Assembly (NCBI RefSeq): GCF_022352215.1
Contig: NZ_JAKRWF010000007.1
Location: 1-64,000, forward strand
DNA length: 64,000 bases
Direction: 5' to 3'
Source of the DNA: Flavihumibacter cheonanensis
Lineage (GTDB): Bacteria > Bacteroidota > Bacteroidia > Chitinophagales > Chitinophagaceae
Every line of letters begins with the position of its first letter. Positions within the stretch are counted from its first letter, which is position 1. The notes under the pieces are model-generated. The model saw only the letters and a list, made by a program, of their open reading frames with translations. It had not been told where the DNA came from and made no database searches. Positions 42,636 to 64,000 of this stretch are shown here, piece after piece. A program made the translations under genes and the position numbers.

Positions 42636-43430
42636 TTAGCGCCGAAGGATTCGGATCGCAACGCGACGAAAATCAATCTCCTGGCCTTCCGACTGAAGTG
42701 CGATAAATCCTTTTTTCAGGGGAGTTCCATCAATTTTGATGGCGGGGTTGAAATTATTTACCACACCCCCACCGATTTGCGGTTTAGAATACTGCAGAAC
42801 GGTATCACCATTAATGATGTGTTTAATAAGGCTATCTCCCAAAACAATAGCTTCCGCAGTTACCCATTGATCTCCATCAAAGGTTTTCGACCTGGAGTCA
42901 ATACAATGCCGGGTATCCAGCTTGCCTTCGTATTCCACATTGGTGCCGGGCGTACAGAGGTTACCGGTAGTACGGGGCTTACCATCACCCAACCCGCCCA
43001 GGAATTGCATTTCGATGGAGATGGGCCAATCCTGGTCTTTCAACATGGTGCGGGGGTCCTGGGAATGCAGCATTACCCCACTGTTACGATAGGTATAACC
43101 CGGTGCATCTTCCTTGAATTTTCCAGTAAATCTATATTCAACCAGCAAGTGATAGTGCGAAAAAGGACGTTTGAAATACAAATGCGCAAACTGGTCATTA
43201 TAAGCACCATACTGATCATACCGAACCTTAATAAGACCATCCTCCACCCGGAAAGTATTTCCAAAATTCACTCCCACATCGTGATGATTCACCTTTACGA
43301 TCCAGTTGCGGATATGCTTGCCATTGAAGAGTTCTATCCACTTCTTTTCATCAGAGCCATGCTGTGAAAAGGAGCAGACGAAGACCAGCAACGCAATCGG
43401 TGCTACCGAAAAAAGCCTGTAACGGTTCAT
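42636..43430 (-). CDS. DUF1080 (3-keto-disaccharide hydrolase-type) exported protein
   Basis: A 264-residue protein with a signal (RLFSVAPIALLVFVCSFSQ) and the concanavalin-like PF06439 fold: KKWIELFNGKHIRNWIVK, NTFRVEDGLIKVRYDQ, YHLLVEYRF, YRNSGVMLHSQDP, WPISIEMQFLGG, WVTAEAIVLGDSLIKHIINGDTVLQYSKPQIGG and PLKKGFIALQSEGQEIDFRRVAIRIL. PF06439 is named 3-keto-disaccharide hydrolase, and members are linked to cleavage of glycosides oxidised at C3. It follows GH3 by 78 bases and is in the same strand and probably the same locus as the GMC and Gfo/Idh/MocA genes, which could supply the oxidised substrate. The reaction in this organism is inferred. Confidence 0.88.
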   Translation of the reverse strand: MNRYRLFSVAPIALLVFVCSFSQHGSDEKKWIELFNGKHIRNWIVKVNHHDVGVNFGNTFRVEDGLIKVRYDQYGAYNDQFAHLYFKRPFSHYHLLVEYRFTGKFKEDAPGYTYRNSGVMLHSQDPRTMLKDQDWPISIEMQFLGGLGDGKPRTTGNLCTPGTNVEYEGKLDTRHCIDSRSKTFDGDQWVTAEAIVLGDSLIKHIINGDTVLQYSKPQIGGGVVNNFNPAIKIDGTPLKKGFIALQSEGQEIDFRRVAIRILRR

Positions 43431-43508: not shown

Positions 43509-45797
43509 TCAGCGGGACCAGCGGAAGTTGGCAGACTGGGTATCGCGGGAATTGGCACCAATGAATACAGTAAACTCCCCCGGCTCCCAATCATAGCGAA
43601 GGTTATGATCGTAGAACTTCAGAAGATCATTTGTTATTTCAAAGCTGATCTCTTTTGATTCACCCGGCTGCAACAGGATCTTCTTAAATCCTTTTAATTC
43701 CTTGAGCGGACGGGTATTGCTGGCTACGATATCACGGATATAGAGTTGAACCACTTCTTCCCCAGCGAATTTTCCACTATTGGTTACGGTTACCCGGGCA
43801 ATTAATTTTTCTGCACCTTTCAGGGATGACTTACTTAGTGCAACCGGACTGTAATCAAACTTCGTATAACTAAGTCCGTAACCAAATGGATACAGTGGCG
43901 TATTGGAAACATCCAGGTAATTTGAACGGAACTTCTGGAACTCATCGCCCACCAAGGGACGTCCGGTATTCTTGTAACTGTAGTAAATCGGAATTTGTCC
44001 CACATTTCGTGGAAAGGTAACCGGTAGTTTGCCAGATGGATTCACATCGCCAAATAATACATCACTGATTGCATATCCTGCTTCCGAACCACCAAACCAT
44101 ACATTCAAAATGGCGGGAAGCTTTTTATCTTCTTCTACAATCGTGAGCGGGCGGCCAGTAAAGAGCACCATTACAACAGGTTTGCCGGTTGCCATCAACG
44201 CATCCAGTAGTTTTTTCTGGCTGTTTGGCAGGTTGAGATCGGTTCTGCTGGAAGCTTCACCCGTGAATTCGGCCAACTCTCCCATTGCAGCTACCACTAC
44301 GTCAGACTGCAGGGCCAAACGCACTGCTTCAGCAATCAGTGTATCCGGATGTCTTGAATCCCGTTGCCAGGGTTTTCCAAATACGCTGGTACGTGCCTCC
44401 AAAGCAGAATCCTCCGTAACATTCGCACCTTTCGCATACCGAACATTCACACCTGAGCCTGCAACTTCTTTTAGTCCGGCCAGCAGCGAGGTAGCTTTGG
44501 AAACATCTGCTGAAACCGACCAGGTTCCCACCATGTTTTCTTTCGCATCTGCAAGTGGGCCAACCAATGCAATGGACCCCTTTTTTGCAAGCGGCAATAC
44601 ACCCTGGTTCTTCAGCAGGACGAAAGAACGAGCAGCTGTTTCTCGCGCAACTTTTCTATGAGTTGCTGAAAATATTTCCGAAGCGGCTCTCTGCTCATTG
44701 CAATACCGAAATGGATCTTCAAAGAGTCCTAGTTTGTACTTGGCTTCCAGTACCATCCTGCAAGCGCGATCAATATCCGTCATTGTAATTTTACCTTCTT
44801 TCAAGGAAGCTTCGAGCGTAGTTAAAAACCCTTCCCCCACCATATCCATATCGAGTCCGGCTTTAACAGCCAGAGCAGATACCTGCTTAAGATCACCCAG
44901 CCCATGGTCGATCATTTCATTAATCGATGTGTAATCCGAAACAACCATTCCTTTGAAACCCCATTGTTTACGCAACAGGTCAGTCAGCAACCATTTGTTC
45001 GCACTGGCGGGAATACCATCAACATCATTAAAAGAACTCATAACCGTACCAACACCAGCATCAATGGCGGCTTTATAAGGCGGTAAATAATCGTTGAACA
45101 TTTTAATGCGGCTCATATCAACAGAGTGATAATCGCGGCCCGCTTCAGCTGCACCATAAAGGGCAAAATGTTTCACGCAGGCAAGCAGGGTATTATCTGC
45201 AGCTAAATCCTTGCCCTGGTAACCCTTTACCATAGCTGCCGCGATGGCTGAACCGAGAAAGGGATCTTCTCCTGAACCTTCCGAAATCCTTCCCCAGCGC
45301 GGATCACGTGATATATCAACCATGGGGGAAAAGGTCCAGTTCAGTCCGTCTGCCGTAGCTTCCTGTGCGGCGATCCGGGCTGATTGCTCAATTCGTTGCA
45401 TATCCCAGGAAGCTGCCAATCCCAATGGAATAGGAAAAATGGTGCGGTACCCATGAATAACATCCATTCCAAAAATGATGGGAATTTTCAACCGGCTTTG
45501 CTGAACAGCCAATTCCTGGATGCTGCGAATGCGCTGTGGAGAGGAAACACTAAAGATGCCACCCACTTTACCCTGTTTGATTTTTTCTTCCACACCCGTA
45601 CTAACAACCGAGCCGGTTGTTGCTTCACCTCCAACAACCAGATTCAGTTGTCCGATTTTTTCCTGGACTGTCATTTTAGCCATTAGCCCGGATACAAACT
45701 GATTCATTTTAGTTTGAGCAGTTTGGGAATGAACCGAACCAGGCAGCAAGAATGCCAGGACAATCAAGATGCGAAAAAGGGGTGCATTGTATTTCAT
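43509..45797 (-). CDS. bglX: GH3 beta-glucosidase, BglX type
   Basis: A 762-residue exported protein (signal IVLAFLLPGSVHSQ). It has a GH3 TIM barrel (IPIIFGMDVIHGYRTIFPIPLGLA, ACVKHFALYGAAEAGRDY) with nucleophile Asp288 in VVSDYTSI, the alpha/beta sandwich with ELAEFTGEASSR for the acid/base, and a C-terminal fibronectin type III-like domain (GEEVVQLYIRDIVASNTRPLKELKGFKKILLQPGES). It releases terminal beta-glucose from oligosaccharides in the periplasm. An upstream TTG is in frame, but the ATG at 45797 is used. It lies in the polysaccharide locus, 15 bases after the SGNH gene. Confidence 0.95.
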   Translation of the reverse strand: MKYNAPLFRILIVLAFLLPGSVHSQTAQTKMNQFVSGLMAKMTVQEKIGQLNLVVGGEATTGSVVSTGVEEKIKQGKVGGIFSVSSPQRIRSIQELAVQQSRLKIPIIFGMDVIHGYRTIFPIPLGLAASWDMQRIEQSARIAAQEATADGLNWTFSPMVDISRDPRWGRISEGSGEDPFLGSAIAAAMVKGYQGKDLAADNTLLACVKHFALYGAAEAGRDYHSVDMSRIKMFNDYLPPYKAAIDAGVGTVMSSFNDVDGIPASANKWLLTDLLRKQWGFKGMVVSDYTSINEMIDHGLGDLKQVSALAVKAGLDMDMVGEGFLTTLEASLKEGKITMTDIDRACRMVLEAKYKLGLFEDPFRYCNEQRAASEIFSATHRKVARETAARSFVLLKNQGVLPLAKKGSIALVGPLADAKENMVGTWSVSADVSKATSLLAGLKEVAGSGVNVRYAKGANVTEDSALEARTSVFGKPWQRDSRHPDTLIAEAVRLALQSDVVVAAMGELAEFTGEASSRTDLNLPNSQKKLLDALMATGKPVVMVLFTGRPLTIVEEDKKLPAILNVWFGGSEAGYAISDVLFGDVNPSGKLPVTFPRNVGQIPIYYSYKNTGRPLVGDEFQKFRSNYLDVSNTPLYPFGYGLSYTKFDYSPVALSKSSLKGAEKLIARVTVTNSGKFAGEEVVQLYIRDIVASNTRPLKELKGFKKILLQPGESKEISFEITNDLLKFYDHNLRYDWEPGEFTVFIGANSRDTQSANFRWSR

Positions 45798-45812
45798 GGT
45801 AGTCAATTTTGA

Positions 45813-46553
45813 TCAATTTGTTTTTTTCAGATGGTACCTGATCTGTTTTTGCCAGATCAGGTACCCTTTAGGATTCATATGAAGACTGTCACTGGTAAAG
45901 ATCTCCCCAATTGGGCGACCATCCGATTGTAGCATTGCCTGGTAAACATCAATGTAGGTAGTTCCTTTCTGTGTGGCGAGGAAGGCTTTGATTTGCTGAT
46001 TAGCCTCCTTGAATTTTGGAAGTAGTGCAGCGCGACTCGGACTTGGTTTCATTGAAATATAACTGATAGGAACACGAGGTAAACGGACACGTATATCCCA
46101 GAATAATTGTTTAAACCGATTTACCACTGTTGTAACAGTTACCGTATCTGCTGCAGCAAAATCGTTCTCTCCGCAATAGATCAGGATCTGTTTTGGATCA
46201 TAGGGATAGATGATATAATCCTGGTACCTAATGAGGTCGGGAAGTGAAGAGCCTCCAAAGCCGCGATTAACAATCCGGTAACCAGGAAAATAAGTAGCCA
46301 CATCTTTCCAATAGGTGAAGGAAGAACTGCCGATCAGCAAAATTGATTTGGAAGCCGGCATTCGTATACTGTCTTCCTGTTGAAATTTTCGAATCGCCTC
46401 ATAAAAGGGTTTACCCTGATAAAACGCCAGGGAGGGAGCTTTCGCATCATCTACTGATGGCACCTGTTGTTGAGCCAATACGGGCAACATTGCCGTTGAA
46501 AAAAGAGCGATCAAAAGCGTACTTATCAAGATTTTTTTTGACGGAATTTGCAT
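45813..46553 (-). CDS. SGNH/GDSL-type esterase, exported
   Basis: A 246-residue protein with a signal (ILISTLLIALFSTAMLPVLAQ). The SGNH blocks are visible: ILLIGSSSFTYW (nucleophile Ser77), VNRGFGGSSLPDL (oxyanion Gly), ILIYCGENDFAAA (Asn block) and DSLHMNPKGYLIW (catalytic Asp and His). Such esterases remove acetyl or other acyl groups from polysaccharides. It starts 12 bases after the stop of the DoxX-GH43-like gene and belongs to the locus, suggesting that the substrate is acylated. Confidence 0.9.
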   Translation of the reverse strand: MQIPSKKILISTLLIALFSTAMLPVLAQQQVPSVDDAKAPSLAFYQGKPFYEAIRKFQQEDSIRMPASKSILLIGSSSFTYWKDVATYFPGYRIVNRGFGGSSLPDLIRYQDYIIYPYDPKQILIYCGENDFAAADTVTVTTVVNRFKQLFWDIRVRLPRVPISYISMKPSPSRAALLPKFKEANQQIKAFLATQKGTTYIDVYQAMLQSDGRPIGEIFTSDSLHMNPKGYLIWQKQIRYHLKKTN

Positions 46554-46564
46554 GTCCAGTTTAT

Positions 46565-48727
46565 TTAGTTTACCTGTTGTACGGGAGTTTTATCTGAAAC
46601 GCCGTTTTCATTCACCGCTTCGATGGTGTAATAGTAAACCTTCTCTTTGTCCATTCCTTTAAAATAATACTCGTTTACATCATGCACCATGATGCAATTG
46701 TACAACTTATCAGGAGCTGTTCCATAATAAATATTGTATGCATAAGCCTGATCAACCGGCGACCATTTGATATAGGCACTGCGTTTATCCTTCTCTGTTC
46801 TAAGTACCAGAAAAGTCTTCACAGCAGGGGGCCTGGATCCATTTCCCATTCCGAATACCCTGAAACCAGACAAGGCAAATTTTCCGGTTGGCATATGAAT
46901 ATTCTCCATTTTAAGGTAACGGGTTTTAATGGGATTTTTTAATTCAATGTAATCATGCGGAACATCTTTTTTGTTCTGACTTTTATCTATGAGCAGGTTC
47001 CATTTTTTCCCATCCTGCGAATGAAAAATTTTATACTGATGATAGATATCAGTTTGTTTACCAAGAAATTCCGCATCCTGATCTGCATAGTTGAGTTGAA
47101 TGGCATGTACTGTTGAGATTTCACCCAGGTCGGTCTGAATCCATTCGCCTTTATTGCCTGATGCCGCACTCCAATAGGTTTTAATAGACTCATCTACTGC
47201 GTTGTTAGCGGTATAACTGCCAAGGGTGGACGAAACCTGAACCGGTTTTTTAAAGTTGAGTAACATCCAGCCGGTAAAGCGGCTTTTACGATGATCAGCC
47301 GGGCCATTGGGCAGGTAATGTGGATAGTCACCAAATGCGGTATTGGCATACATAATTCCATCTTCATCAAAACCTGCGGGCCAAATGCCATTGCGACGTT
47401 CAAAGGTGTTTTTTACATTGACACCCATGGTTGAAACATGCCAGTAATTATTCCATGGATCCTGGTAAGTGGCACCATGTCCTGCTCCTCTTGCAAAACC
47501 TCCGGGTTTGAAGCTGACCGGATCGGATTGTGCAGTAAAAGGGCCCAGAGGTGAATCGCCCACTACAACGCCATCTGCATAGCCACTCATTTCAGTACCA
47601 GGACCTCCCCACTGCAGATAATATTTTCCCTTGTGTTTGGTCATCCATGCACCTTCAATAAATCCATCCAAAAAAGTATTATCCATGTATTCACCAAAGC
47701 GATGCCAGCCATAGCGCCAGTCTTCCAGGAAATACATTTCTTTCCTGGTTCCAATTGGCTGAAAGGTTTTGCGGTTTAATTCTATTCCGTATAAAGGATA
47801 ACGATTGCTACTGCCATTGTACATATAAAAGCGGCCGTCGTCGTCGAGGAAAAATGCAGGATCCCAACCACCGATCTCGAGTGAATCCAATGCTTCCTTC
47901 CAATCATTCTCCTTAGGATTGGTACTCATCCAAAGTGGAAAATTGCTGGAATAGGTAGAACCAAAAACCAACATGGTATCACCAATAACAACAGCTGCCG
48001 GTGCACATAATTCATCATACACTTTGTGATAAGGCTTGAGAAATTTCCGGGAAATAAAATTCCAGTTCAGCATATCGGAACTCCACCAGTATCCCCATTG
48101 GTTAGTGGAGAAAAGATAATAATCTCCTTTATAGGTTACAATCACCGGGTCAGCAGTTGCGCGGTGCCGGCCCCATTCACTAAAATTAGGAATCGGGGTA
48201 TAACCGTAATCGAGGTTGATGGGATTGCAATAAGTTGTTTGAGCTGTTGCTACTGATTTACCTGATTGTGCAAAGCACACATTCGAAGCGAAAACTAATA
48301 CTAAAATGGAAAGTTTAGGGGAGAAAAAATGTTGGTCCAGGCTGTATTTGCCGGCACCCCTAAAGAAAAACAGCAATCCGATTAAAACAAACATAAAGGG
48401 GTGTTGATCTCCATACCAGATCTTACCATTTCCAAGAATAAAAGTGATAAATAACATCGTTGCGATCATGGGCCATACTGCTAGCCGGGTAAAGAGCCCA
48501 ATCGTTAGCAGGATACCGGAAATTAACTCCGAAGCTTTTCCAAGATATGCCATCGTGGTAGCTGTCTCTACAGAGAAGTATGGCATCCAGCCGGCATATT
48601 CTTTAATTTTTGCCCCATCAAACACTTCCCAACCGTGATAGGTCATCAACAATCCTGTAATGATTCTTACTAGGGCCCAACCGGGTTCCAGCCAGATTGT
48701 TTTTTGTGTAGCGTTGAAAGAGGCCAT
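46565..48727 (-). CDS. DoxX domain fused to GH43-like glycosidase with F5/8C and Fn3
   Basis: A 720-residue protein. Residues 1-133 are a DoxX-like domain with four membrane helices (ALVRIITGLLMTYHGWEVF, ASELISGILLTIGLFTRLA, MIATMLFITFILGNG, FMFVLIGLLFFFRGAGKYSLDQHFF). Residues 137-154 look like a signal peptide (KLSILVLVFASNVCFAQ). A five-bladed GH43-type propeller then follows with DPVIV (Asp193), GWDPAFF (Asp289) and FIEGAW (Glu358) at the spacing expected for the base, modulator and acid. About 490-620 is an F5/8C domain and about 625-715 an Fn3 domain. The join of a complete membrane domain to a complete secreted enzyme is unusual. The substrate is unknown; the GMC gene lies 12 bases upstream. 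Confidence 0.85.
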   Translation of the reverse strand: MASFNATQKTIWLEPGWALVRIITGLLMTYHGWEVFDGAKIKEYAGWMPYFSVETATTMAYLGKASELISGILLTIGLFTRLAVWPMIATMLFITFILGNGKIWYGDQHPFMFVLIGLLFFFRGAGKYSLDQHFFSPKLSILVLVFASNVCFAQSGKSVATAQTTYCNPINLDYGYTPIPNFSEWGRHRATADPVIVTYKGDYYLFSTNQWGYWWSSDMLNWNFISRKFLKPYHKVYDELCAPAAVVIGDTMLVFGSTYSSNFPLWMSTNPKENDWKEALDSLEIGGWDPAFFLDDDGRFYMYNGSSNRYPLYGIELNRKTFQPIGTRKEMYFLEDWRYGWHRFGEYMDNTFLDGFIEGAWMTKHKGKYYLQWGGPGTEMSGYADGVVVGDSPLGPFTAQSDPVSFKPGGFARGAGHGATYQDPWNNYWHVSTMGVNVKNTFERRNGIWPAGFDEDGIMYANTAFGDYPHYLPNGPADHRKSRFTGWMLLNFKKPVQVSSTLGSYTANNAVDESIKTYWSAASGNKGEWIQTDLGEISTVHAIQLNYADQDAEFLGKQTDIYHQYKIFHSQDGKKWNLLIDKSQNKKDVPHDYIELKNPIKTRYLKMENIHMPTGKFALSGFRVFGMGNGSRPPAVKTFLVLRTEKDKRSAYIKWSPVDQAYAYNIYYGTAPDKLYNCIMVHDVNEYYFKGMDKEKVYYYTIEAVNENGVSDKTPVQQVN

Positions 48728-48738
48728 GTTGTCTGATT

Positions 48739-50430
48739 TTAGAGATTTCCATTTTTCATTTCAGCGGCAGCAAATTGCGCGGCCCTGGCAGCGAAAGCCA
48801 TATACAAAATAGAGGGACTCTGATTACCGGTACTGGTCATGCAGGCGCCATCCGTTACAAAAACATTTTTACAGAGATGCAGTTGATTCCATTCGTTGAG
48901 CAGGGAATTGGAAGGATCCGTACCCATGCGTACACCACCCATTTCATGAATATCGAGTCCGGGTGGTTGTTTCGAATCGTTTACGACAATATTAAAAGCA
49001 CCACAGGCCTCCAGCATTTTTTCGCCTTCTGAAAGAAAATCCTGCAGCATTTTTTCATCGTTTTCATCATAATCGACAGCTGTTACCAGCAAGGGTATTC
49101 CCCATTGATCTTTTTCAGTTGGGTGCAGATAAACACGATTGCTTGCCTTTGGAATGGTTTCACCCTGCATATACATGTAGATCCTCCAGGGGCCAGGTTC
49201 GGTCAGCGCTTCCTTCAACTCTGAACCCATTTTATCCGGATGGCGATCTGCGTTTATCCATTCGCGATAGGCACCTGAAAAAATAGTGTAGCCCCCAATA
49301 AAATCCATTTCCTGTTTGCCGAGGTTACGGAAATTCGGAATCACGCATTCCGCTGGACGCCGGCCTTTGTAATAGCCATCTTCATGGCCTTTGATTTCCC
49401 CATTCATATAACCACGATAGTTGTGGAAACAGATATAACGACCAAGCAGATCATGGTCATTACCCAGGCCATTGGGGAAACGTTCTGATTTGCTATTGAG
49501 TAAGATCAGGTTGGTATTAAGCGCCGAAGCATTTACAAAAATGATGCGGGCAAAATAATCGGTGACAGCTTTTGTTTGGCTGTCTATCACGCGCACCCCT
49601 GTTGCTTTTTGTTTGGCATCATCATAGAGAATGGAATGCACTACCGAATAGGGCCGAATGGTCAGGTTCCCTGTTTTTTCAGCCCAGGGAAGAGTACTGC
49701 TGTTGGAACTGAAATAGCCGCCAAATGGGCAACCACGCATGCAGAGGTTACGATTCTGGCAGGTGCCTCTGCCCTGCTCCAGGTGAATGGGTTCCGGTTG
49801 GGTAAGATGTGCCCAGCGACCCGAGATATAGTGCCGTTGAAATTTTCGCCACAAGGTTTCTCTGATGTCTGCTTCCACACAATTGAGTTCATAGGCAGGG
49901 AGGAATTCACCATCGGGCATTGCCGGAATATTTTCCTTACTGCCACAAACACCAATAAATTTTTCAACATGACTGTACCAGGGTGCGATATCCTTGTACC
50001 GGATTGGCCAATCGGTAGCAAAGCCATATTGTTTAGGAGCATTGAATTCAAAATCACTCCAACGTTGGCAGCTTCTGCCCCAGGTAAGGGATTTTCCTCC
50101 AACCTGGTAACCGCGAATCCAGTCGAAGGGCTTTTCCTGTACATAGGGATGATCAGCATCTTCAATGAAAAAATGCTGTGTATCTTCTGAATAACCGGCT
50201 GCTTTGGAAATGAGCGGATTGTTCTGACGTTGCTGTTGGGTGATATAGCCCCGGTGTTTGAATTCCCATGGATGTTTGTTCATACCGGGGTAATCCTTCA
50301 GATGTTCCACCATCCGGCCGCGCTCCAGCACCAGGGTTTTCAAGCCCTGCTCGCAGAGTTCTTTGGCAGCCCAGCCTCCGCTGATTCCACTGCCTATTAC
50401 AATTGCGTCGTATGTATGTTGATCACTCAT
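48739..50430 (-). CDS. GMC-family FAD-dependent oxidoreductase
   Basis: A 563-residue protein: YDAIVIGSGISGGWAAKELCEQGLKTLVLERG is the FAD-binding beta-alpha-beta, GYQVGGKSLTWGRSC the GMC signature, CMRGCPFGGYFSSNSST a Cys-rich flavin-proximal loop, and HEMGGVRMGTDPSNSLLNEW and VFVTDGACMTSTGNQSPSILYMAFAARAA the C-terminal active site region with the catalytic His and Asn. Homologues with this layout oxidise sugars or glycosides, often at C3, and usually pair with a small gluconate dehydrogenase subunit 3-type protein that carries the Tat signal; none is present here, and no signal is visible on this protein. The Gfo/Idh/MocA gene is 45 bases upstream. Confidence 0.92.
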   Translation of the reverse strand: MSDQHTYDAIVIGSGISGGWAAKELCEQGLKTLVLERGRMVEHLKDYPGMNKHPWEFKHRGYITQQQRQNNPLISKAAGYSEDTQHFFIEDADHPYVQEKPFDWIRGYQVGGKSLTWGRSCQRWSDFEFNAPKQYGFATDWPIRYKDIAPWYSHVEKFIGVCGSKENIPAMPDGEFLPAYELNCVEADIRETLWRKFQRHYISGRWAHLTQPEPIHLEQGRGTCQNRNLCMRGCPFGGYFSSNSSTLPWAEKTGNLTIRPYSVVHSILYDDAKQKATGVRVIDSQTKAVTDYFARIIFVNASALNTNLILLNSKSERFPNGLGNDHDLLGRYICFHNYRGYMNGEIKGHEDGYYKGRRPAECVIPNFRNLGKQEMDFIGGYTIFSGAYREWINADRHPDKMGSELKEALTEPGPWRIYMYMQGETIPKASNRVYLHPTEKDQWGIPLLVTAVDYDENDEKMLQDFLSEGEKMLEACGAFNIVVNDSKQPPGLDIHEMGGVRMGTDPSNSLLNEWNQLHLCKNVFVTDGACMTSTGNQSPSILYMAFAARAAQFAAAEMKNGNL

Positions 50431-50475: not shown

Positions 50476-51636
50476 TTAGACAATAGGCCAGCGGAAGCTG
50501 GATTGAAGGCTGATTTTCTGGCCGGTTTGCGAAGAGGCGCGGGCGGACTCAATAATATCCAGCACGTGCAAGGCATGCTCGGGAGAAATCAGCGGTTCGT
50601 TTTTGTCGAGCAGGGATTTTGAAATCACGGTAGCTCCTTCCTGCCAGACATAGGTTCCAGGATCCGGAATGTGGCGCACAGGAGTTGGAGAATCCATGGT
50701 TGCAAGATCTACACCAAAAGGAGCCCAGTCATATCCTACCAATCCCATATTGCCCTTTGTACCCCAGATGGAAATCGTGTGCCTGTCCTGTCCCTTACCA
50801 CCATGACCATACGGATCAAAATAATTAAACCCGCTCTGCACATGAGACAATACGCCACCTTCATGTTCCATGATGATCATCGCATTGTCTTCGGCCTCCA
50901 CTTTTATTTTGCCCTTGTTATCGACAGTACGTTCAGGCGTAACAATGGTTGTCATGGCGATCACAGATTTCGCAGGACCCAACAGCCCTGTTAAGGTAGC
51001 AAGATTATAAACACCCAGATCAGGAAGACTGCCACCGCCTTTTTCATAGAAGAAAGCCGACCAGTGCGGTCCTTCATGGCCATAATGAGCATGTGCCGCA
51101 GAAACCTTACCCAATTTACCTTCCTGAATGGCTTTGCTCATAAAGGCAAATTGCGGACTGTTTACCACTGCAGGTGCTCCCCAGATACGGAGCTTTTTTT
51201 CTCGGGCCATATCCAACAATGCTTTGCCTTCCTTATAGGTATTTGCCATCGGTTTTTCACTCCATACATGTTTGCCGGAAGCAAGGGCCATTTTATTGAG
51301 CCGGCCATGCTCCTGCATATCAGTCAGATTCACAAGCAGATCAAAGGGTGCACCAGCAAGCTGCTGGTAGATATGTTCATACACATGCGGAACATTAAAT
51401 TCTTTTGCCCGGTTCTTTGCTCTTTCCAGCACGATATCGCAAACACTCACCAGCTCCACATGCGCCGATTTGGAAAGATGTGGCAGGTACTGTCCGGATA
51501 CACTACCACAACCAACAATTCCGATTTTGATTTTTTTATTTTCCGTAAAAGCTACCGCTTCCAATGAGGAAAGCAGCAGGGCAGCACCTGCCATAGCAGA
51601 CTGCTGGAGAAATTCTTTGCGGGATTGATTTTTCAT
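50476..51636 (-). CDS. Gfo/Idh/MocA oxidoreductase with Tat-like signal
   Basis: A 386-residue NAD(P)-dependent oxidoreductase. The N-terminus MKNQSRKEFLQQSAMAGAALLLSSLEAVA has a twin-arginine-like SRKEFLQ motif (the second Arg replaced by Lys), suggesting folded export. The Rossmann part is IKIGIVGCGSVSGQYLPHLSKS and the fold motif WSEKPMA is present. The C-terminal half is the substrate sheet with HYGHEGPHWSAFFYEKGGGSLPDLGVYNL. Such enzymes interconvert hydroxyl and keto sugars and may re-reduce or reoxidise the GMC product. The ATG at 51636 is used; a TTG two codons upstream is less likely. Confidence 0.92.
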   Translation of the reverse strand: MKNQSRKEFLQQSAMAGAALLLSSLEAVAFTENKKIKIGIVGCGSVSGQYLPHLSKSAHVELVSVCDIVLERAKNRAKEFNVPHVYEHIYQQLAGAPFDLLVNLTDMQEHGRLNKMALASGKHVWSEKPMANTYKEGKALLDMAREKKLRIWGAPAVVNSPQFAFMSKAIQEGKLGKVSAAHAHYGHEGPHWSAFFYEKGGGSLPDLGVYNLATLTGLLGPAKSVIAMTTIVTPERTVDNKGKIKVEAEDNAMIIMEHEGGVLSHVQSGFNYFDPYGHGGKGQDRHTISIWGTKGNMGLVGYDWAPFGVDLATMDSPTPVRHIPDPGTYVWQEGATVISKSLLDKNEPLISPEHALHVLDIIESARASSQTGQKISLQSSFRWPIV

Positions 51637-51665
51637 ATGCAAGGTTTTAGCAATTGCTGTAACTA

Positions 51666-53018
51666 TTATTTAAGGTGAGGGCTTTGAAAGCCCAGTTTTT
51701 TAAGGCCTTTTTGCACTTCAGGGCAGGACATGAACAGTTTCCAAAGCAAGCCAGTCCGGTGATTTTCGATCATAACTATGATCGGTCCCTGGTCAATGGC
51801 AAGGTGGCTGGAAGCGTACCAGTTTTGTGTTTCATTGAAGGCATCTACAAAACCGTATTCTGACCAGATCTTATCACCCAATTGTTCATAAAAATGGCGA
51901 AGCGCCTGCATAGAATATTCGGATGTATAGGGAAATGCAGAAAGTGCTGCGGTAGGAGTGATCGTACCCTTATCATTGGTTGGTGAATGGGCATCATATC
52001 CATTGTATGTATCACTGGCGGTGAGACCCCAGGATTGTGGGCCATATCCTTTGAACTGATTGGGATTACGCACACAATGTTCCCGGTTGATCAGGGTATG
52101 ATTGCGATTTTGAATCCAGTAGTCTGCATAGCGATCCTTCAATCCACGTGGATCTAAACCCAGGAAGGAATAATGAGAAAAGAAAAGTGGTCCGCCAAAG
52201 TCAAACCCCAGGGGCAGTTCTATCCCATAAAACTCTTTGCCATTTTTAAAGAAATTGCTCTGAGCCCATCCATTGTGATAAACCGCGGGAGAAACCGGAT
52301 AGCGATCTGCTGAGGCAGCCAGCACATACATGATCAGGCATTCATTAAAACCACGAACCGGAAAATTCATTGCCCATCCGTTATTAGGGCTCCAGTGCCA
52401 GTAGAGTACCTCCTGGTTATTGGTAAACCAGTTCCATTCGATATCATTCCAGAGCCAATTGATCCGGTTTCGGAGTTCCCCTTCAACCGGATTATCTGCA
52501 TTGAAGTATTGTCGTGCTGTCAACAGACCCTGGAACAGAAAAGAAGACTCTACCAGGTCGGCACCATCATCTTTGCGACTAAAGGGAATGGTTTTCCCTG
52601 TTTCACCATTCAGCCAGTGAGGGAAAACACCGTGATAGGAATCTGCTTTAGAAAGAAAGCGAACCATCTTAAGGAGGAATTTAGCAGCCGTATCACGTTG
52701 AATCCATTTTCTTTCAGTTGCCACAATCACTGCCATAATTCCGAAGCCCGTACCACCGGTTGTAACTACTTCACCACCATAATTAAACGATTCGTTGCTG
52801 CGTTCCCGTGATAGTCCGGAAACCGGATGCGCAAAATCCCAGAAATAGCGAAAGGTTTGTTGCTGAACCAGATCGAGTAAAGCAGAATCGGAAAGATTCC
52901 GGGGTCGATCTGTTGCAGAAAAAGCTAGCGGTTTCGGTTGCTTTTTCTTTTGCGCATAGGCAACACTGTTGAAGGCGCCAATCAGGCAGCAGAAAAAAAC
53001 AAAATGGCGGATTTTCAT
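51666..53018 (-). CDS. GH144-type (PF10091) exported glycosidase
   Basis: A 450-residue protein with an SPI signal (HFVFFCCLIGAFNSVAYAQ) and an (alpha/alpha)6 barrel: FRYFWDFAHPVSGLSRERS, TTGGTGFGIMAVIVATERKW, YHGVFPHWLNGETGKTIPFSRKDDGADLVESSFLFQGLL, VLYWHWSPNNGWAMNFPVRGFNECLIMYVLAA and WGLTASDTYNGYDAHSPTNDKGTITPTAALSAFPYT. Characterised GH144 members are endo-beta-1,2-glucanases that make short sophoro-oligosaccharides; PF10091 also covers GH162 and uncharacterised groups. It is 450 residues and close in sequence to its upstream neighbour, which suggests duplication. Confidence 0.85.
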   Translation of the reverse strand: MKIRHFVFFCCLIGAFNSVAYAQKKKQPKPLAFSATDRPRNLSDSALLDLVQQQTFRYFWDFAHPVSGLSRERSNESFNYGGEVVTTGGTGFGIMAVIVATERKWIQRDTAAKFLLKMVRFLSKADSYHGVFPHWLNGETGKTIPFSRKDDGADLVESSFLFQGLLTARQYFNADNPVEGELRNRINWLWNDIEWNWFTNNQEVLYWHWSPNNGWAMNFPVRGFNECLIMYVLAASADRYPVSPAVYHNGWAQSNFFKNGKEFYGIELPLGFDFGGPLFFSHYSFLGLDPRGLKDRYADYWIQNRNHTLINREHCVRNPNQFKGYGPQSWGLTASDTYNGYDAHSPTNDKGTITPTAALSAFPYTSEYSMQALRHFYEQLGDKIWSEYGFVDAFNETQNWYASSHLAIDQGPIIVMIENHRTGLLWKLFMSCPEVQKGLKKLGFQSPHLK

Positions 53019-53033
53019 CGCTGTTGTTTTAGG

Positions 53034-54698
53034 TTATAGATAGGGTGCAGTAAATCCCAGTTTACGCAGTGCGGCTTTTACTTCAGGTGCAGCTGAAAAA
53101 AGGTCCCAGCACAAACCGGTCCGATGGTTTTCAATCATCACAATTATCGGGGCCTGGTCAATGGCCAGGAAACTATCAGCAAACCAGGCATTGTGAAGGG
53201 AGAATGCATCAATAAAACCGTACTCTTTAAAAAGTTTATCGCCAAGGACATAATAGTAAAACTTCAGAGCAGCCATTGATTCATCCGGCGTATAGGGAAA
53301 GGATGCGAGTGCTGCTGTTGGAGCAATTACACCCCGGTCGTTCTGTGGAGAACTGGCCGTATATCCATTTGGGATATCGCTGGCTGTTAGTCCCCATACA
53401 CTGCCGCTGTATCCAAAAAACCGGTTCGGGTTTTGTATACTGTGCTGGTAATTAATTTTTGCATGCTGACGGTTCTGCACCTCATAATCAGCGTAGGCAT
53501 CTTTAAGGCCTATCGGATTGATCCCCAAAAAGGAATAATGAGATAAAAACAGCGGACCACCATAAGGCTCACCCAGCGGCAAATTAATACCATAATAGGA
53601 TGCACCATTCTTCATGGCACCTTCCCTGGCCCATCCCTTATCATATACCTCTTTTGAGACCGGATGAGTTGGAGAACCGGCAGCCATCACATAGGTAACC
53701 AGGCATTCGTTCCAACCTCTGATGGGCAGGTTCATATCCCAGCCAAAATCAGGACTCCAGTGCCAGAAGAGAACATTTCCATTATTGCGCAGGAACCAGT
53801 CCCACTCAACTGCTTCATAGATTTCGGTTATACGCGACCGTAACTCAATTGCAGCCGGGGCGTTATCATCAAAGTATTCACGCGCGGTGAGCAGGCCCAT
53901 GATAAGAAAAGAAGTTTCAACCAGGTCGGCACCATTGTCTTTCTGACTAAAGGGGATAGTTACCCCGGTTGCACCATTCATCCAATGTGCGAAAGCTCCA
54001 TGATAGCGGGTGGCTTTGGTGCGTAAAAATTCAGTAATGGTTTGAATTCTTTCCAGCCCTTGTTGGCGTGTAATAAATCCGCGTTCTATCCCAACCAGCA
54101 GGGCCATAATGCCAAAGCCTGTACCACCGCTGGTTACCAGGTCTCCGGAACTGTTTCTTTCCCGGGCCATCCCACTAACGGGGTGACCAAAATCCCAGAA
54201 ATACCGGAAGGTTTGTTCCTGAACTTTGGTAAGCAGTGCATCATCCGTAAGAGCTGGGAATTTGGAGGAGGAATCCAGCTTCGTTACAAACTGCTGATCC
54301 ACTGATGAAATAAAGTTTCCCCCGGATGCTGATTTCAAAGTAGTTGCCAGTTGAAGGCGGTGGAAAGTCAGGAAATCCAAATTGCCGGTTGGCTGGATTT
54401 TCAGGACTGAATCTTTTTGTTCAAGCACCACATTTGCAGCGATTGTCTGACCTGCTTTATTGGTCAGACTAACCGCGTTGGTTACACTGGAAGGCAGTAC
54501 AGGTTCTGAAAAAACAATCCGGATCACCGGATTACGGCCCAGGTTATACCGGACCGAATTCCATTCCTCGCCGTCCAGCAGCAGCCGGTTTACCTTTAGT
54601 TGTTTGGGCACAACCGGTTCCGGCTTTTCTTCTTCAGACTTGGAGCAGGCTGTAAAAAGAACACCGAGGCAAACAGCATATAAAACAAAAAATCTCAT
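53034..54698 (-). CDS. GH144-type lipoprotein with N-terminal Ig-like domain
   Basis: A 554-residue protein with a lipoprotein signal (LYAVCLGVLFTAC, Cys18), an Ig-like domain (about 35-135: NRLLLDGEEWNSVRYNLGRNPVIRIVFSEPVLPSSVTNAVSLTNKAG, SbsA type), and the same PF10091 barrel as its neighbour (FRYFWDFGHPVSGMARERN, WHWSPDFGWDMNLPIRGWNECLVTYVMAA). The lipoprotein form suggests a surface enzyme making fragments for SusC/D, and the neighbour without a lipid anchor a periplasmic one. The start is 12 bases after the GH30 stop. Confidence 0.87.
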   Translation of the reverse strand: MRFFVLYAVCLGVLFTACSKSEEEKPEPVVPKQLKVNRLLLDGEEWNSVRYNLGRNPVIRIVFSEPVLPSSVTNAVSLTNKAGQTIAANVVLEQKDSVLKIQPTGNLDFLTFHRLQLATTLKSASGGNFISSVDQQFVTKLDSSSKFPALTDDALLTKVQEQTFRYFWDFGHPVSGMARERNSSGDLVTSGGTGFGIMALLVGIERGFITRQQGLERIQTITEFLRTKATRYHGAFAHWMNGATGVTIPFSQKDNGADLVETSFLIMGLLTAREYFDDNAPAAIELRSRITEIYEAVEWDWFLRNNGNVLFWHWSPDFGWDMNLPIRGWNECLVTYVMAAGSPTHPVSKEVYDKGWAREGAMKNGASYYGINLPLGEPYGGPLFLSHYSFLGINPIGLKDAYADYEVQNRQHAKINYQHSIQNPNRFFGYSGSVWGLTASDIPNGYTASSPQNDRGVIAPTAALASFPYTPDESMAALKFYYYVLGDKLFKEYGFIDAFSLHNAWFADSFLAIDQAPIIVMIENHRTGLCWDLFSAAPEVKAALRKLGFTAPYL

Positions 54699-54710: not shown

Positions 54711-56156
54711 TTAATCCCACACAAAAGTTGTAACAGATCCGCCCTGTAAATTCACGGTTGCCAATTGTCCTTTGTATTTGATCGCGAAGGTTGAATTGCC
54801 GGGAGCTTCTCTCAGGAGGATCAATACTTTTTTCCCTTCGGGTGTAAGGAAAGCAACATTGTCCAGTCCGGGTGGAACATTACTATGAATTCGCACGGAT
54901 CCTGCAGGAACAAATTTGGCAGCATGACCTATAATATAATAGGAAACATTTTTCTGAACTGCTCCATTCTGAATAGTAAGTGCGCCTTTACATTCTGTAC
55001 AGCCACCGGGAGTATGAGGACCGAAACTGGCATCGTTTGCCAGGTTCCATTCGAGTGCCACTTTACTGTAATTGCGGGTGGTACCAATGATCACATTTTT
55101 AATATGCCAGAAAAGATCGCCCTGGAACTCTCCTTTTGCACCGGTCCATTGTTCAGTAAAATAGAGGTTCTTATCCGGATGTGCATCACGTACGGTTTTC
55201 ATTGCAGAAACCTCCCCGGCGTAGAGATGAAAGGCAGAACCATCTACATACTGTTTGGCCCCGGCATCATTCAGAATAGTAATCGGATAATCCGGGCGAT
55301 CCAGGTTATGGTCGTATATCACAATTTTAGTTGAAATATTCGCAGCTTTGAAAGCAGGACCAAGAGCATCCCGGATGAAATCACGTTGTTGTTCTGCCGA
55401 CATAAAGAGGCTGGGATTATTACCCGGATGAAGCGGTTCATTTTGTGGCGTGATGGCATCGATGGTGATACCATGTGCTTTCATAGCCTGGATATACTTC
55501 ACAAAATACTGCGCATAAACCTGGTGGTATTTGGTAAGCAGGCTGCCTCCTTTGGAATTGTTATTGTCTTTCATCCAGGTTGGAGGACTCCAGGGAGAAC
55601 CCATGATTTTAATAGCCGGATTGATTGCCAGAATTTCTTTGAGAACCGGAATCAGGTTTTGTTCATCCCTGGCGGTAGAGAAAGAAGAAAGGTCTTCATC
55701 TGTTTCTCCTGCAGGGAGATCGCTGTAACTGAAAACCTCCGCATCCAGGTCAGATGCACCGATACTAATTCTCAGGTAGCTGACAGAAATACTGTTTTCA
55801 TTTTTGCCAAACAGTTCCTGTAAAAGGGATGTGCGCTGCGCCTGTGGCAATTGCATCAGCAGATAAGCACTGCCACCGGTTAATGAATAACCGAAACCAT
55901 CCATGGTTTGAAACTGAACCGTACTGTCCACTTCTATGGTAGTAAGGTTATTATTGGTTGCAGAACTAAACTTTACCGAAGTGGGGAATTTTGCTAGCAG
56001 AGACAATTGATCTCCGCGCGTAACCCAATACGAAACTGTGGCGCCATCTGCAGGTTTAGGTTGCTCTTCCGGTGCTTTTTCTCCGGAGCAGTTTGACAGG
56101 GAACAGCTCATTAAAGAAACTAATAGTGCCAGAACAGTGAAATTCTTTTTTACCAT
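54711..56156 (-). CDS. GH30 beta-glucanase, probable subfamily 3 (beta-1,6)
   Basis: A 481-residue lipoprotein (signal TVLALLVSLMSC, Cys18). The GH30 TIM barrel has FQTMDGFGYSLTGGSAYLLMQLPQAQRTSLLQELFG, SYLRISIGASDLDAEVFSYSD, IMGSPWSPPTWMKDN, the acid/base Glu240 in TPQNEPLHPGNNPSLFMS and the nucleophile Glu335 in YFTEQWTGAKGE. The C-terminal beta-sandwich completes it. The motif details match the subfamily that hydrolyses beta-1,6-glucan, although neighbouring subfamilies act on other beta-glucans or glucosylceramide. It lies five bases after the FG-GAP gene. Confidence 0.9.
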   Translation of the reverse strand: MVKKNFTVLALLVSLMSCSLSNCSGEKAPEEQPKPADGATVSYWVTRGDQLSLLAKFPTSVKFSSATNNNLTTIEVDSTVQFQTMDGFGYSLTGGSAYLLMQLPQAQRTSLLQELFGKNENSISVSYLRISIGASDLDAEVFSYSDLPAGETDEDLSSFSTARDEQNLIPVLKEILAINPAIKIMGSPWSPPTWMKDNNNSKGGSLLTKYHQVYAQYFVKYIQAMKAHGITIDAITPQNEPLHPGNNPSLFMSAEQQRDFIRDALGPAFKAANISTKIVIYDHNLDRPDYPITILNDAGAKQYVDGSAFHLYAGEVSAMKTVRDAHPDKNLYFTEQWTGAKGEFQGDLFWHIKNVIIGTTRNYSKVALEWNLANDASFGPHTPGGCTECKGALTIQNGAVQKNVSYYIIGHAAKFVPAGSVRIHSNVPPGLDNVAFLTPEGKKVLILLREAPGNSTFAIKYKGQLATVNLQGGSVTTFVWD

Positions 56157-59452: not shown

Positions 59453-59465
59453 GAGCTTTATGATA

Positions 59466-59502
59466 AAGAGGGGCTGAAACAATTCCTTGATCAGCCCCTC
59501 TT
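59466..59502 (-). terminator. Intra-operon hairpin between the LamG and FG-GAP genes
   Basis: A perfect 12-bp stem (AAGAGGGGCTGA, 59466-59477, with 59491-59502) and 13-base loop. On the minus strand a short T tract (TTTAT) follows. It lies 30 bases after the LamG stop and 13 bases before the FG-GAP start codon, and may be a partial terminator or RNA-processing site that sets a lower level for the enzymes. Confidence 0.6.
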
Positions 59503-60431: not shown

Positions 60432-61940
60432 TCAATAATTCGGGTTCTGGATCAGGATGCCACCAGAAAAATCGATCGCAGATTGAGGAATCGGGTAGTA
60501 TTGATGTCTTGGCTGATAACCTTGCGGGCCAAGCACCTGTTCTGCCAATCCCCAGCGAACCAGGTCGTAGAAGCGTTCTCCTTCCATGGCCAGCTCAACC
60601 CTTCTTTCCTGCTGGATCGCTGTACGCATCTGGTTTTTGCTGGTGAAAGCAATATTGGGCAGCACTGCCGCATTATTACCTCTTGCCCTGGCCCTGATCT
60701 GGTTTACATACTGCACCGCTTTTGCTTCATTCGCTGCGCCACCAATTTCATTGGCAGCTTCTGCAGCCATCAGCAGTACATCCGCGTAACGAAGGATGGG
60801 CTGGTTAAGCCAACCATTTTGTCTGTTACTGGTTGCCAATTGTACATCTGGTTCCGGATATACTTTTTTATTCCAATACAAACGTGGAATAGAAGGAAAT
60901 GCCGGAACAGTTTTTCCATACAATCCATCATCCTGACCGGAAAACAGGATGGTAGCGTTCTTACGTGGATCTCCTGCTTCATATGCATTTACCAGGTTTT
61001 CAGTAGGTGTATTCCAACCCCATCCGAGATCCCATTCAGCAGCGCCACGAACACCCTGGGCAATACCGTACCAGGAGAAATAATTATCTGTATTATTCGC
61101 ACCAATGGAGGATTGAATTTCCCAGATGGATTCCTTACTGTTTTCTCCTCTGGTTGTAAATAATTGCTGGTAATTGGGGAAGAGTTCGTATCTGCCGGAA
61201 TTAATCACCTGTTCTGCATAGCTTAAAGCACCTGCCCAGTCTTTCCGGTACAACAGTGTTTTTGCAGTCAGTGCCTGCGCTGCACCCTGTGTCAAACGTC
61301 CGACAAATTGTGCAGGCCATTCAACAGGAAGATTCGCTCGTGCAAATTCCAGGTCTGAATCAATCAATGCATAAATTTCAGCAACTGAAGATTTAGGAAC
61401 TTTCGAATCTTCCGGATTATACACACGGAAATCGATCTTGGGAACTTCACCAAAAGCACGAACCAGATCAAAGTAAGCATAGGCGCGGAACATCCTGGCT
61501 TCTGCAATATTTACCAATGATGCAGGATCATTCGCATTGAGTGAATCAGCCAATTGAAGGGCTGTATTCGCCTGACCAATCAGTACATAGTGCTGATCCC
61601 AATAGGTTGTGGAAGACCAGTGGTCTTTTGCATATTGGAATTGGTCATAAATCACACCCCAGTCGGCACCATCGGAAGGGCTACTTCCTTTTTCAGAATC
61701 ATCTGACCTGAAGTTATTCATACCCAGCCAGGGAATGCCACCGAATCCTTGTCCGGCTACATCTCCATTTCGAATGGCACCATACAGGCCATAGATCTGG
61801 CCTTCTATACCACCTTGTGTAAGGTCATCGAGGGTGGCTGTAAGTGGTTTTCTGTCCAGGAATTTTGAACAGCCAGCCAGTATTAGCAGGATTGGTAAAC
61901 CAACCAGTACAGCCCTCATTGCATTCTTTTTATATGTCAT
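60432..61940 (-). CDS. SusD/RagB-type starch/glycan-binding lipoprotein
   Basis: A 502-residue lipoprotein (signal VLVGLPILLILAGC, Cys24) of SusD/RagB layout: SKFLDRKPL at the start, TPR-like helices (LIGQANTALQLADSLNANDPASLVNIAEARMFRAYAYFDLVRAFGEVPKID), PILRYADVLLMAAEAANEIGG, and AIQQERRVELAMEGERFYDLVRWG and IPQSAIDFSGG near the end. It caps the SusC channel and binds oligosaccharides before import. It starts 18 bases after SusC, which fixes the pair. Confidence 0.97.
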   Translation of the reverse strand: MTYKKNAMRAVLVGLPILLILAGCSKFLDRKPLTATLDDLTQGGIEGQIYGLYGAIRNGDVAGQGFGGIPWLGMNNFRSDDSEKGSSPSDGADWGVIYDQFQYAKDHWSSTTYWDQHYVLIGQANTALQLADSLNANDPASLVNIAEARMFRAYAYFDLVRAFGEVPKIDFRVYNPEDSKVPKSSVAEIYALIDSDLEFARANLPVEWPAQFVGRLTQGAAQALTAKTLLYRKDWAGALSYAEQVINSGRYELFPNYQQLFTTRGENSKESIWEIQSSIGANNTDNYFSWYGIAQGVRGAAEWDLGWGWNTPTENLVNAYEAGDPRKNATILFSGQDDGLYGKTVPAFPSIPRLYWNKKVYPEPDVQLATSNRQNGWLNQPILRYADVLLMAAEAANEIGGAANEAKAVQYVNQIRARARGNNAAVLPNIAFTSKNQMRTAIQQERRVELAMEGERFYDLVRWGLAEQVLGPQGYQPRHQYYPIPQSAIDFSGGILIQNPNY

Positions 61941-61958
61941 AGCTGTAAGATTTTTTGA

Positions 61959-64000
61959 TTAGAAAGTAACATTAATACCACCTGTGATAACCATAGGCAA
62001 TGGACCATTACCATTGTCAATACCAAAGGAAGTAGCAATACCACCGAACTCAGGTGTATAACCGGAATTACGCTTGAAAGTTTTCAGGTTCTGCACATTG
62101 GCAAAAATTCTTGCGCTCTTCATTGCAGCTCTTTGAATCAGTTTAGAGCTGAAGTTGTAACCGATTTGTACGTTCCGAATGCGGATATAACTACCATCTT
62201 CAATACCATAAGTAGAAGGCAGGCGGTTGATGGCACGGTTGTCACCCAGGATCGGATCCCAGTTAGAAGTACCCGGACCATTCCAGCGATTCAACTTGAA
62301 AGCCGGATAGTTGAATTTGGTAAATGGCAGTTCTGAACTACCCCAGTAGCGATAGATTTCATTTCCGTAAACACCATTGAAGTCGATACCGAAATCAAAA
62401 CCCTTGAAGTTTGCACCCAGGGAGAAACCATAGGCAAAATCAGGAGTAGGATTACCAATCATTGTGCGGTCATCAGAATTGATAACACCATCACCATTGA
62501 TATCGCGGTATTTGAAATCACCCGGACCATACTCATAACCCTGTACAGGAGGAGAAGCCAGTTTATCAGCATAACTCTGATACAGACCATCCACCACATA
62601 ACCATAGAAATAACCAATCGGATAACCAGCTTCGGTTACGTTTGGTCTTTCTTCGCTGGGGGGAAGGCGATCACCACCAAGAGAAATCACCTTGTTATTG
62701 AAAGTGGTAATGTTACCATTAAAAGTCAGGGTGAAATCATTGGTGATTTTCTGAGTCCAGCCAGCTGCAACTTCAATACCATTGTTTTTCACGCGGCCCA
62801 CGTTATCCAAACGGCTGCCCGCACCAGAACCTACCCGAACCAGGGTCATTACATCGCGGGTATCTTTATGATAGTAAGCAGCTTCAACACGCAGGCGATT
62901 GTTCAGCAAATAGGCTTCAAATCCAGCTTCTTTGGAATCCACCACTTCCCAGGTCAGATTCTGGTTAGGAATATATGCCTGAGAATAAGCAGGGATGATA
63001 TTATTTCCAAACACCGCTGTATTACCTGTTTGCAGGCCAGGGTAGAATGGATAATCATAACCATAGGTGTTCTGCACACCGAGAAGACCCCAGGAAGCTT
63101 TGATTTTCAGATAATCAAACAGGTTCTGGCGGGCCATGAAATTTTCGCGGGTAACTTCCCACGCAGCACCTACTGAGTAGAAGTTTTTCCAGCGGTTTTC
63201 AGGAGAAATCTGGGATGAACCATCTCTTCTGAAAGAAGCATTCAACATGTATTTGCCCTGGTAATTATACAAGAGGCGGAACAATCCGGATGCTGTAGCT
63301 TTCTCCCATTGAGCAGAAGAAGAACGACGTGTTGTCTGATCTACAAATCCATTATCAATATACCAGAACCGGGGATCATCAGGAATTGCATCACCCGGAT
63401 CTTTTTGACGTGCTGTAGCAAAAAGACCGCTGTAGGTATTAAAGTAAGTTGTGAAACCAGCAAGGGCAGTCAGGCCATGATCACCAAAATCCTTTTTAAA
63501 GGTCAGGATGTGATCTTGCTGGAACTTTCTCCATTCCTGCTTATTCTGGCTAACGGAAGTAATCCTGTTATTGGGATCAACAAAAACCTGTTCGCCTGAT
63601 GGGAGTGTCGGGTTGAAAACCTCGATGATTGGATTGTAGGTGCGGTCGTCGCCCCATGACATATCACCATAGAGGGTAGAACGCCAGTTGAAGTTTCTCA
63701 GGAAATTTACATCAAAATAAACGCTACCTACCAGCCGGTATTCCATCCTCTTTTCCTTATCCCATTTTGTTTCCAGGTTCATCAGCGGGTTGCTGATCTG
63801 GGCTTGCTGAAGAGCTAGCTGAGAATATCTTCCACTAGCTTCATCAAAAGGATCTGTGATAGGCAATACGCGGCGGGCATCAAACAACAAACCATCTGCC
63901 TGGCTGAATGGAAGGCGCTGGCGGAAACCATTCATATTAAACCCAAGCTTGATGTTTTTATTTACTTTGTATTCATCATTAATTGTCAGGAGGATTTTCT
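61959..64000 (-). CDS. SusC/RagA TonB-dependent outer-membrane transporter, 5' truncated
   Basis: The C-terminal 680 residues or so of a SusC-family beta-barrel; the reading frame continues open to the window edge (LLTINDEYKVNKNIKLGFN upstream of the internal Met at 63935), so the true start lies outside. Barrel segments include RKFQQDHILTFKKDFG, YLKIKASWGLLGVQNTYGYDYPFY, NNRLRVEAAYYHKDTRDVMTLV, KNNGIEVAAGWTQKI and DGVINSDDRTMIGNPTPDFAYGFSLGANFKGFDFGIDFNGVYG, and the typical end FANVQNLKTF and ITGGINVTF. It imports oligosaccharides with TonB energy, with SusD. Confidence 0.97.
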   Translation of the reverse strand, partial: KILLTINDEYKVNKNIKLGFNMNGFRQRLPFSQADGLLFDARRVLPITDPFDEASGRYSQLALQQAQISNPLMNLETKWDKEKRMEYRLVGSVYFDVNFLRNFNWRSTLYGDMSWGDDRTYNPIIEVFNPTLPSGEQVFVDPNNRITSVSQNKQEWRKFQQDHILTFKKDFGDHGLTALAGFTTYFNTYSGLFATARQKDPGDAIPDDPRFWYIDNGFVDQTTRRSSSAQWEKATASGLFRLLYNYQGKYMLNASFRRDGSSQISPENRWKNFYSVGAAWEVTRENFMARQNLFDYLKIKASWGLLGVQNTYGYDYPFYPGLQTGNTAVFGNNIIPAYSQAYIPNQNLTWEVVDSKEAGFEAYLLNNRLRVEAAYYHKDTRDVMTLVRVGSGAGSRLDNVGRVKNNGIEVAAGWTQKITNDFTLTFNGNITTFNNKVISLGGDRLPPSEERPNVTEAGYPIGYFYGYVVDGLYQSYADKLASPPVQGYEYGPGDFKYRDINGDGVINSDDRTMIGNPTPDFAYGFSLGANFKGFDFGIDFNGVYGNEIYRYWGSSELPFTKFNYPAFKLNRWNGPGTSNWDPILGDNRAINRLPSTYGIEDGSYIRIRNVQIGYNFSSKLIQRAAMKSARIFANVQNLKTFKRNSGYTPEFGGIATSFGIDNGNGPLPMVITGGINVTF

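Follow-up and report, generated by a model that had tools for sequence, protein, structure and literature searches.

Recurrent DoxX–GH43 gene fusion in Flavihumibacter with a retained signal peptidase motif between its halves

The fused gene and its surroundings

The DNA analysed here (the window) is a stretch of 64,000 nucleotides from Flavihumibacter cheonanensis, harbouring a polysaccharide utilization locus (PUL) with genes for SusC, SusD, a LamG protein, an FG-GAP/ASPIC protein, a GH30 glucanase, two PF10091 glycosidases, a Gfo/Idh/MocA oxidoreductase, a GMC oxidoreductase, a DoxX–GH43 fusion, an SGNH hydrolase, a GH3 enzyme (BglX) and a DUF1080 protein (Table 1). The fusion gene is present as a single copy in the 4.84 Mb genome and comprises one open frame of 720 amino acids devoid of internal stops; its nearest relatives are found in Flavihumibacter, family Chitinophagaceae. 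The large FG-GAP/ASPIC-UnbV repeat protein of the same locus is encoded at 56162–59482 and recurs in many related loci.

Table 1 Coordinates of the fused gene, its parts and neighbouring genes within the window
Feature	Position	Strand	Evidence
DUF1080 3-keto-disaccharide hydrolase family	42636..43430	-	Pfam PF06439, 3e-34
GH3 beta-glucosidase (BglX)	43509..45806	-	NCBIfam PRK15098, 955 bits
SGNH/GDSL hydrolase	45813..46553	-	Pfam PF13472
Fused DoxX-GH43 gene	46565..48727	-	720 codons plus stop; open frame; fusion shared by eight other genomes
F5/8 type C carbohydrate-binding-like domain, residues 497-611	46895..47239	-	Pfam PF00754, 1.3e-17, above curated cut-off
GH43 five-bladed propeller, residues 164-460	47348..48238	-	Pfam PF04616 at residues 191-458, 2.2e-17, 63.8 bits (curated cut-off 32.2); Foldseek best hit 5msx (BT_3662); catalytic acids invariant
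Predicted signal peptidase I site A153|Q154 (Q-rule glutamine)	48266..48271	-	Q154 identical in seven aligned Flavihumibacter fusions; PMC5837995, PMC10653852
Internal signal-peptide-like segment, residues 134-153 (FFSPKLSILVLVFASNVCFA)	48269..48328	-	10-residue hydrophobic core, then C-F-A|Q; ordinary N-terminal signal peptide here in unfused orthologues
DoxX half, residues 1-133, four transmembrane helices	48329..48727	-	Pfam PF07681 at residues 17-98, 7.1e-14, 52.6 bits (curated cut-off 23.6); AlphaFold2 helices; conserved polar residues
GMC oxidoreductase, upstream, 11 bp from fusion gene	48739..50430	-	Pfam GMC_oxred_C; closest solved relative fructose dehydrogenase large subunit
Gfo/Idh/MocA oxidoreductase	50476..51642	-	Pfam
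Two PF10091 glycosidases related to GH144 endo-beta-1,2-glucanase	51666..54698 (51666-53018, 53034-54698)	-	Both Pfam PF10091; first copy PDB 5gzh, 3.7e-168
GH30 glucanase, similar to BT3312 endo-beta-1,6-glucanase family	54711..56156	-	Pfam GH30; NCBIfam 408 bits, below 700-bit cut-off
SusD and SusC-like genes, head of locus	60432..63935	-	SusD by Pfam; SusC by position and similarity to ORFs ahead of SusD in related loci

A preceding reading of the letters alone (the sequence-only reading) had recognized a complete DoxX protein in residues 1–133 and, behind it, a GH43-type propeller with the three expected acids, and both assignments hold. The DoxX half was modelled by AlphaFold2 with four confident helices (residues 13–36, 53–76, 80–98 and 108–123) and shares fold and conserved polar residues with the DoxX/DoxD family, from which it differs by the presumably secreted hydrolase joined to its C terminus. 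It retains R21, H31, E34, K64, E67, R81, Q108, P110 and F111, each present in 34 or 35 of 35 DoxX orthologues. Since the polar residues common to free-standing DoxX proteins are kept, the membrane part probably still has a function of its own, which disfavours the earlier suggestion that it only anchors the hydrolase. None of the catalytic acids of GH43 (D193, D289 and E358) varies across the 98 orthologues aligned. The best Foldseek hits of the propeller, modelled with mixed confidence, are GH43 structures; the top one, BT_3662 (PDB 5msx), has the same five blades and Asp/Asp/Glu triad, but is only ~19 % identical in the structural alignment, and GH43 genes of the present kind are recurrent in GH144-containing loci of Bacteroidota. 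A search of NCBIfam yielded an equivalog for neither GH43 nor DoxX, only a match to HvfX below the cut-off. The C-terminal F5/8 type C domain and the surrounding PUL are additions to the sequence-only reading. Related GH43 genes repeatedly adjoin GH144 and GH3 genes, and these neighbours together with the gene content of the PUL render a beta-glucan substrate plausible; judged from the locus, the likeliest guess is a beta-glucan-derived oligosaccharide or its decoration.

Occurrence and origin of the fusion

The fusion frame is also open in Flavihumibacter Prado059, F. fluminis RY-1, MAG-374, UBA7668, CACIAM 22H1 and F. petaseus NBRC 106054, as well as in G067 and G197, two nearly identical genomes from a second genus. 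F. fluminis and F. petaseus are isolates, and MAG-374 carries the label Flavipsychrobacter but was placed here in the genus of the window. Five of the other carriers are 85–97 % identical to the window protein. The same frame being open in these eight genomes, and thus in independent assemblies, a missed stop or frameshift near codon 135 in a single assembly is excluded, and homologues of the two halves are not always separate genes: the conserved and recurrent DoxX–GH43 fusion is real. No further fusion elsewhere in the class was found among the matches listed from a draw of 395 genomes. In Flavihumibacter sp. CACIAM 22H1 (L052), the fused frame spans 828 residues from stop to stop and its GH43 match stops early, which suggests a frameshift or assembly error near the C-terminal region.

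Close relatives retain the arrangement expected if, as had been proposed, two genes were joined by loss of a stop. One stop codon is all that divides DoxX from the directly following, in-frame GH43 in F. solisilvae, F. profundi, Flavihumibacter sp. ZG627 and at loci L050 and L051, and two closely spaced in-frame stops divide them in F. stibioxidans. At four further loci (L054, L058, L073 and L026), both genes abut or overlap in another frame, while at most others GH43 has no adjoining DoxX and carries at its N terminus a standard signal peptide that ends in A|Q. At L030 (genome G122), DoxX and GH43 are set apart by an apparent insertion of several hundred bases that includes a short reading frame.

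The fusions fall into three separate lineages. In the tree of the GH43 half they require three changes, all forced by the starred branches, and in the careful GH43 tree (30 rows) three changes were obtained throughout the 5–95 % bootstrap range. A single origin was rejected by AU tests, both for the six Flavihumibacter fusions as one clade (p-AU 6e-9) and for all eight fusions as one group (8e-84), and the DoxX tree independently groups F. petaseus with the unfused F. solisilvae and F. profundi. Stop loss has therefore probably recurred. Three gains are the simplest account; gain followed by loss is less likely, and every loss would have to create a stop, a start and an n-region anew.

The junction between the halves

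The sequence-only reading had placed a former signal peptide at the joint, in agreement with the ordinary N-terminal signal peptide of unfused orthologues at this position. Across the divergent set of fused Flavihumibacter proteins, mean identity amounts to 0.72 for DoxX, 0.26 for the n/h/c region (26 % over segment 134–152), 1.00 for Q154, 0.22 for the linker after it (22 %) and 0.92 for GH43. Q154 is identical in all seven aligned Flavihumibacter fusions and preceded by Ala or, in F. petaseus, by the acceptable but less typical Gly. That precisely this Gln is kept while its neighbours turn over argues for cleavage at the junction still being under selection.

All fusions have K or R ahead of the hydrophobic core, which comprises 10–16 residues (10 in the window), as is typical of signal peptides. 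Signal peptidase I sites of Bacteroidetes follow a Q-rule (PMC5837995), with ~71 % of the substrates having at +1 a Gln that subsequently becomes pyroglutamate (PMC10653852). The junction shares with these sites the short core, the small residue at -1 and the Gln at +1, but is located internally, after four membrane helices, rather than at the N terminus. A PF10502 signal peptidase is encoded in the genome. In a base-rate scan of 818 genes from 80 Bacteroidota loci, the motif x-[AGS]|Q followed 145 of 253 single N-terminal cores, and only 3–6 % of internal ones (3 of 86 last and 32 of 559 other internal cores); it is present at 8 of 8 fusion junctions. These junctions are non-independent, since they represent three origins and a few diverged lineages and every one of them derives from a genuine signal peptide; retention of the motif is therefore weaker evidence than independent observations would be.

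Between the halves of the Flavihumibacter fusions, the window included, there is no start codon with a signal-peptide n-region, and an internal GH43 start in the window was accordingly rejected; GH43 could be made there only as part of the fusion because a usable internal start is absent. The downstream protein is not bound to the single frame in G067 and G197, which have kept an in-frame ATG (MKKWYLL...AQ) inside the fused frame, in what looks like an earlier stage.

Candidate readings of the gene product

The gene probably encodes a polyprotein whose DoxX part goes into the membrane and which signal peptidase I then cuts, freeing GH43 into the periplasm, the location also predicted by the sequence-only reading. 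DoxX would enter the membrane as four helices and end on the cytoplasmic side, whereupon the former signal peptide of GH43 would engage the Sec translocon internally, in N-in/C-out orientation, and the GH43 and F5/8 type C domains would be translocated. Signal peptidase I would probably cut after A153, exposing Gln154 for the expected conversion to pyroglutamate, and DoxX would be left in the inner membrane with a short extra hydrophobic tail, both products presumably retaining their ancestral functions. On this account, two abutting genes of a beta-glucan-type PUL, already in the same frame, became one when the stop codon dividing them was lost, and with translation and processing from one start GH43 would no longer need its own start codon.

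A comparable arrangement is the cytochrome b/c1 polyprotein (fbcH) of Bradyrhizobium, in which a multi-helix membrane protein and an exported protein are cut apart by signal peptidase at an internal signal; literature searches yielded no open paper on this precedent. Both genes encode a multi-pass membrane protein followed in frame by a signal peptide and the mature exported protein. Processing is reported for fbcH, whereas for DoxX–GH43 it is proposed from sequence, and the parts of fbcH share one complex, whereas DoxX and the glycoside hydrolase have no known joint function. The unfused and fused states both persist in close relatives, which makes this a clean example of recurrent gene fusion, and selection seems to maintain the internal export signal. 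We give an even chance to the broader view that stop loss between abutting in-frame genes has repeatedly joined a membrane protein and an exported enzyme into a polyprotein that the cell's ordinary signal peptidase cuts, that the unfused stage and the fused stages with and without an internal start are all alive today, and that bacteria thereby have a route to unite genes while keeping their proteins separate. If so, signal peptidase can make a gene fusion harmless, and an annotation as 'DoxX-GH43 fusion enzyme' may stand for two proteins. The polyprotein reading predicts pyroglutamate at residue 154.

The sequence-only reading had regarded the former signal peptide as a permanent fifth membrane helix, which would tether GH43 to the inner membrane. 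The positive charge on the cytoplasmic side of the hydrophobic segment is in keeping with this, and so is the 19-residue hydropathy, which is 1.72 in the window and reaches 1.46–1.74 in five of the nine fused sequences, compatible with a stable helix. A tethered enzyme might also have a linker such as that of 9–28 residues between Gln and GH43 in two Flavihumibacter fusion lineages; some unfused Niastella and Longitalea orthologues likewise have long linkers. Nevertheless, a tether appears unlikely: the core is short, hydropathy over 19 residues is very weak in F. petaseus (0.27) and G067 (0.98), and the +1 Gln is kept in all fusions although the flanks drift. Attachment to the inner membrane would moreover bring no obvious benefit. 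At the junction, AlphaFold2 returned a short, poorly supported helix (residues 140–147) and no confident fifth helix over 137–154, with low confidence throughout residues 146–192.

Quinone or redox activity is known for some DoxX family members only. A functional complex in which DoxX passes electrons from the GMC dehydrogenase to quinone, the fusion coupling GH43 to it, is improbable. The GMC gene is indeed the immediate neighbour named by the sequence-only reading, DoxX adjoins GMC in Flavihumibacter and several other genomes, and other loci are ordered DoxX–GMC–GH43, once with a small subunit resembling gluconate_2-dh3 by eye; the nearby DUF1080 and Gfo/Idh/MocA genes are from families used in 3-keto-sugar pathways (DUF1080: PMC9007349). 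Against this stand DoxX genes abutting GH43 with no GMC gene in the fetched flanks (L050, L054, L058 and L073) and GMC genes abutting GH43 without DoxX (L055, L056 and L110), an inconsistency across loci by which GMC was rejected as a fixed partner of DoxX. The window GMC, furthermore, has neither an N-terminal signal peptide nor an adjacent dh3 subunit, the three dh3 genes of the genome adjoining other GMC genes. For these reasons, electron transfer from GMC to DoxX is possible but unsupported. Literature searches yielded no open paper that connects DoxX with GMC partners in these bacteria.

Synthesis of both the full-length fusion and a separate GH43 from an internal start has a marginally smaller chance still, as the ATG retained in G067 and G197 would permit it in the second genus only, such a start being absent from the Flavihumibacter fusions. 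An assembly artefact or decaying pseudogene, suggested by nothing but the odd architecture, can practically be dismissed in view of the identical architecture across independent assemblies, isolates included, and of a close clade with 97 % mean GH43 identity, an intact frame and an invariant catalytic triad.

Further arrangements of these genes were observed in related loci. In L055 and L056, from relatives of F. petaseus, DoxX is absent, the GMC frame abuts or overlaps the stop-to-stop frame of GH43, and GH43 has a signal peptide with a long linker behind it, similar to the linker in the fusions. Two Parapedobacter loci (L086 and L091) contain, downstream of the first, a second GH43 that is ~43 % identical to the window GH43. 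At L138, L141, L143, L147 and L148, DoxX orthologues end a cassette of ORFs that by eye resemble SDR, ROK kinase, SIS, MetE-like, NagB-like and metallo-beta-lactamase-fold proteins.
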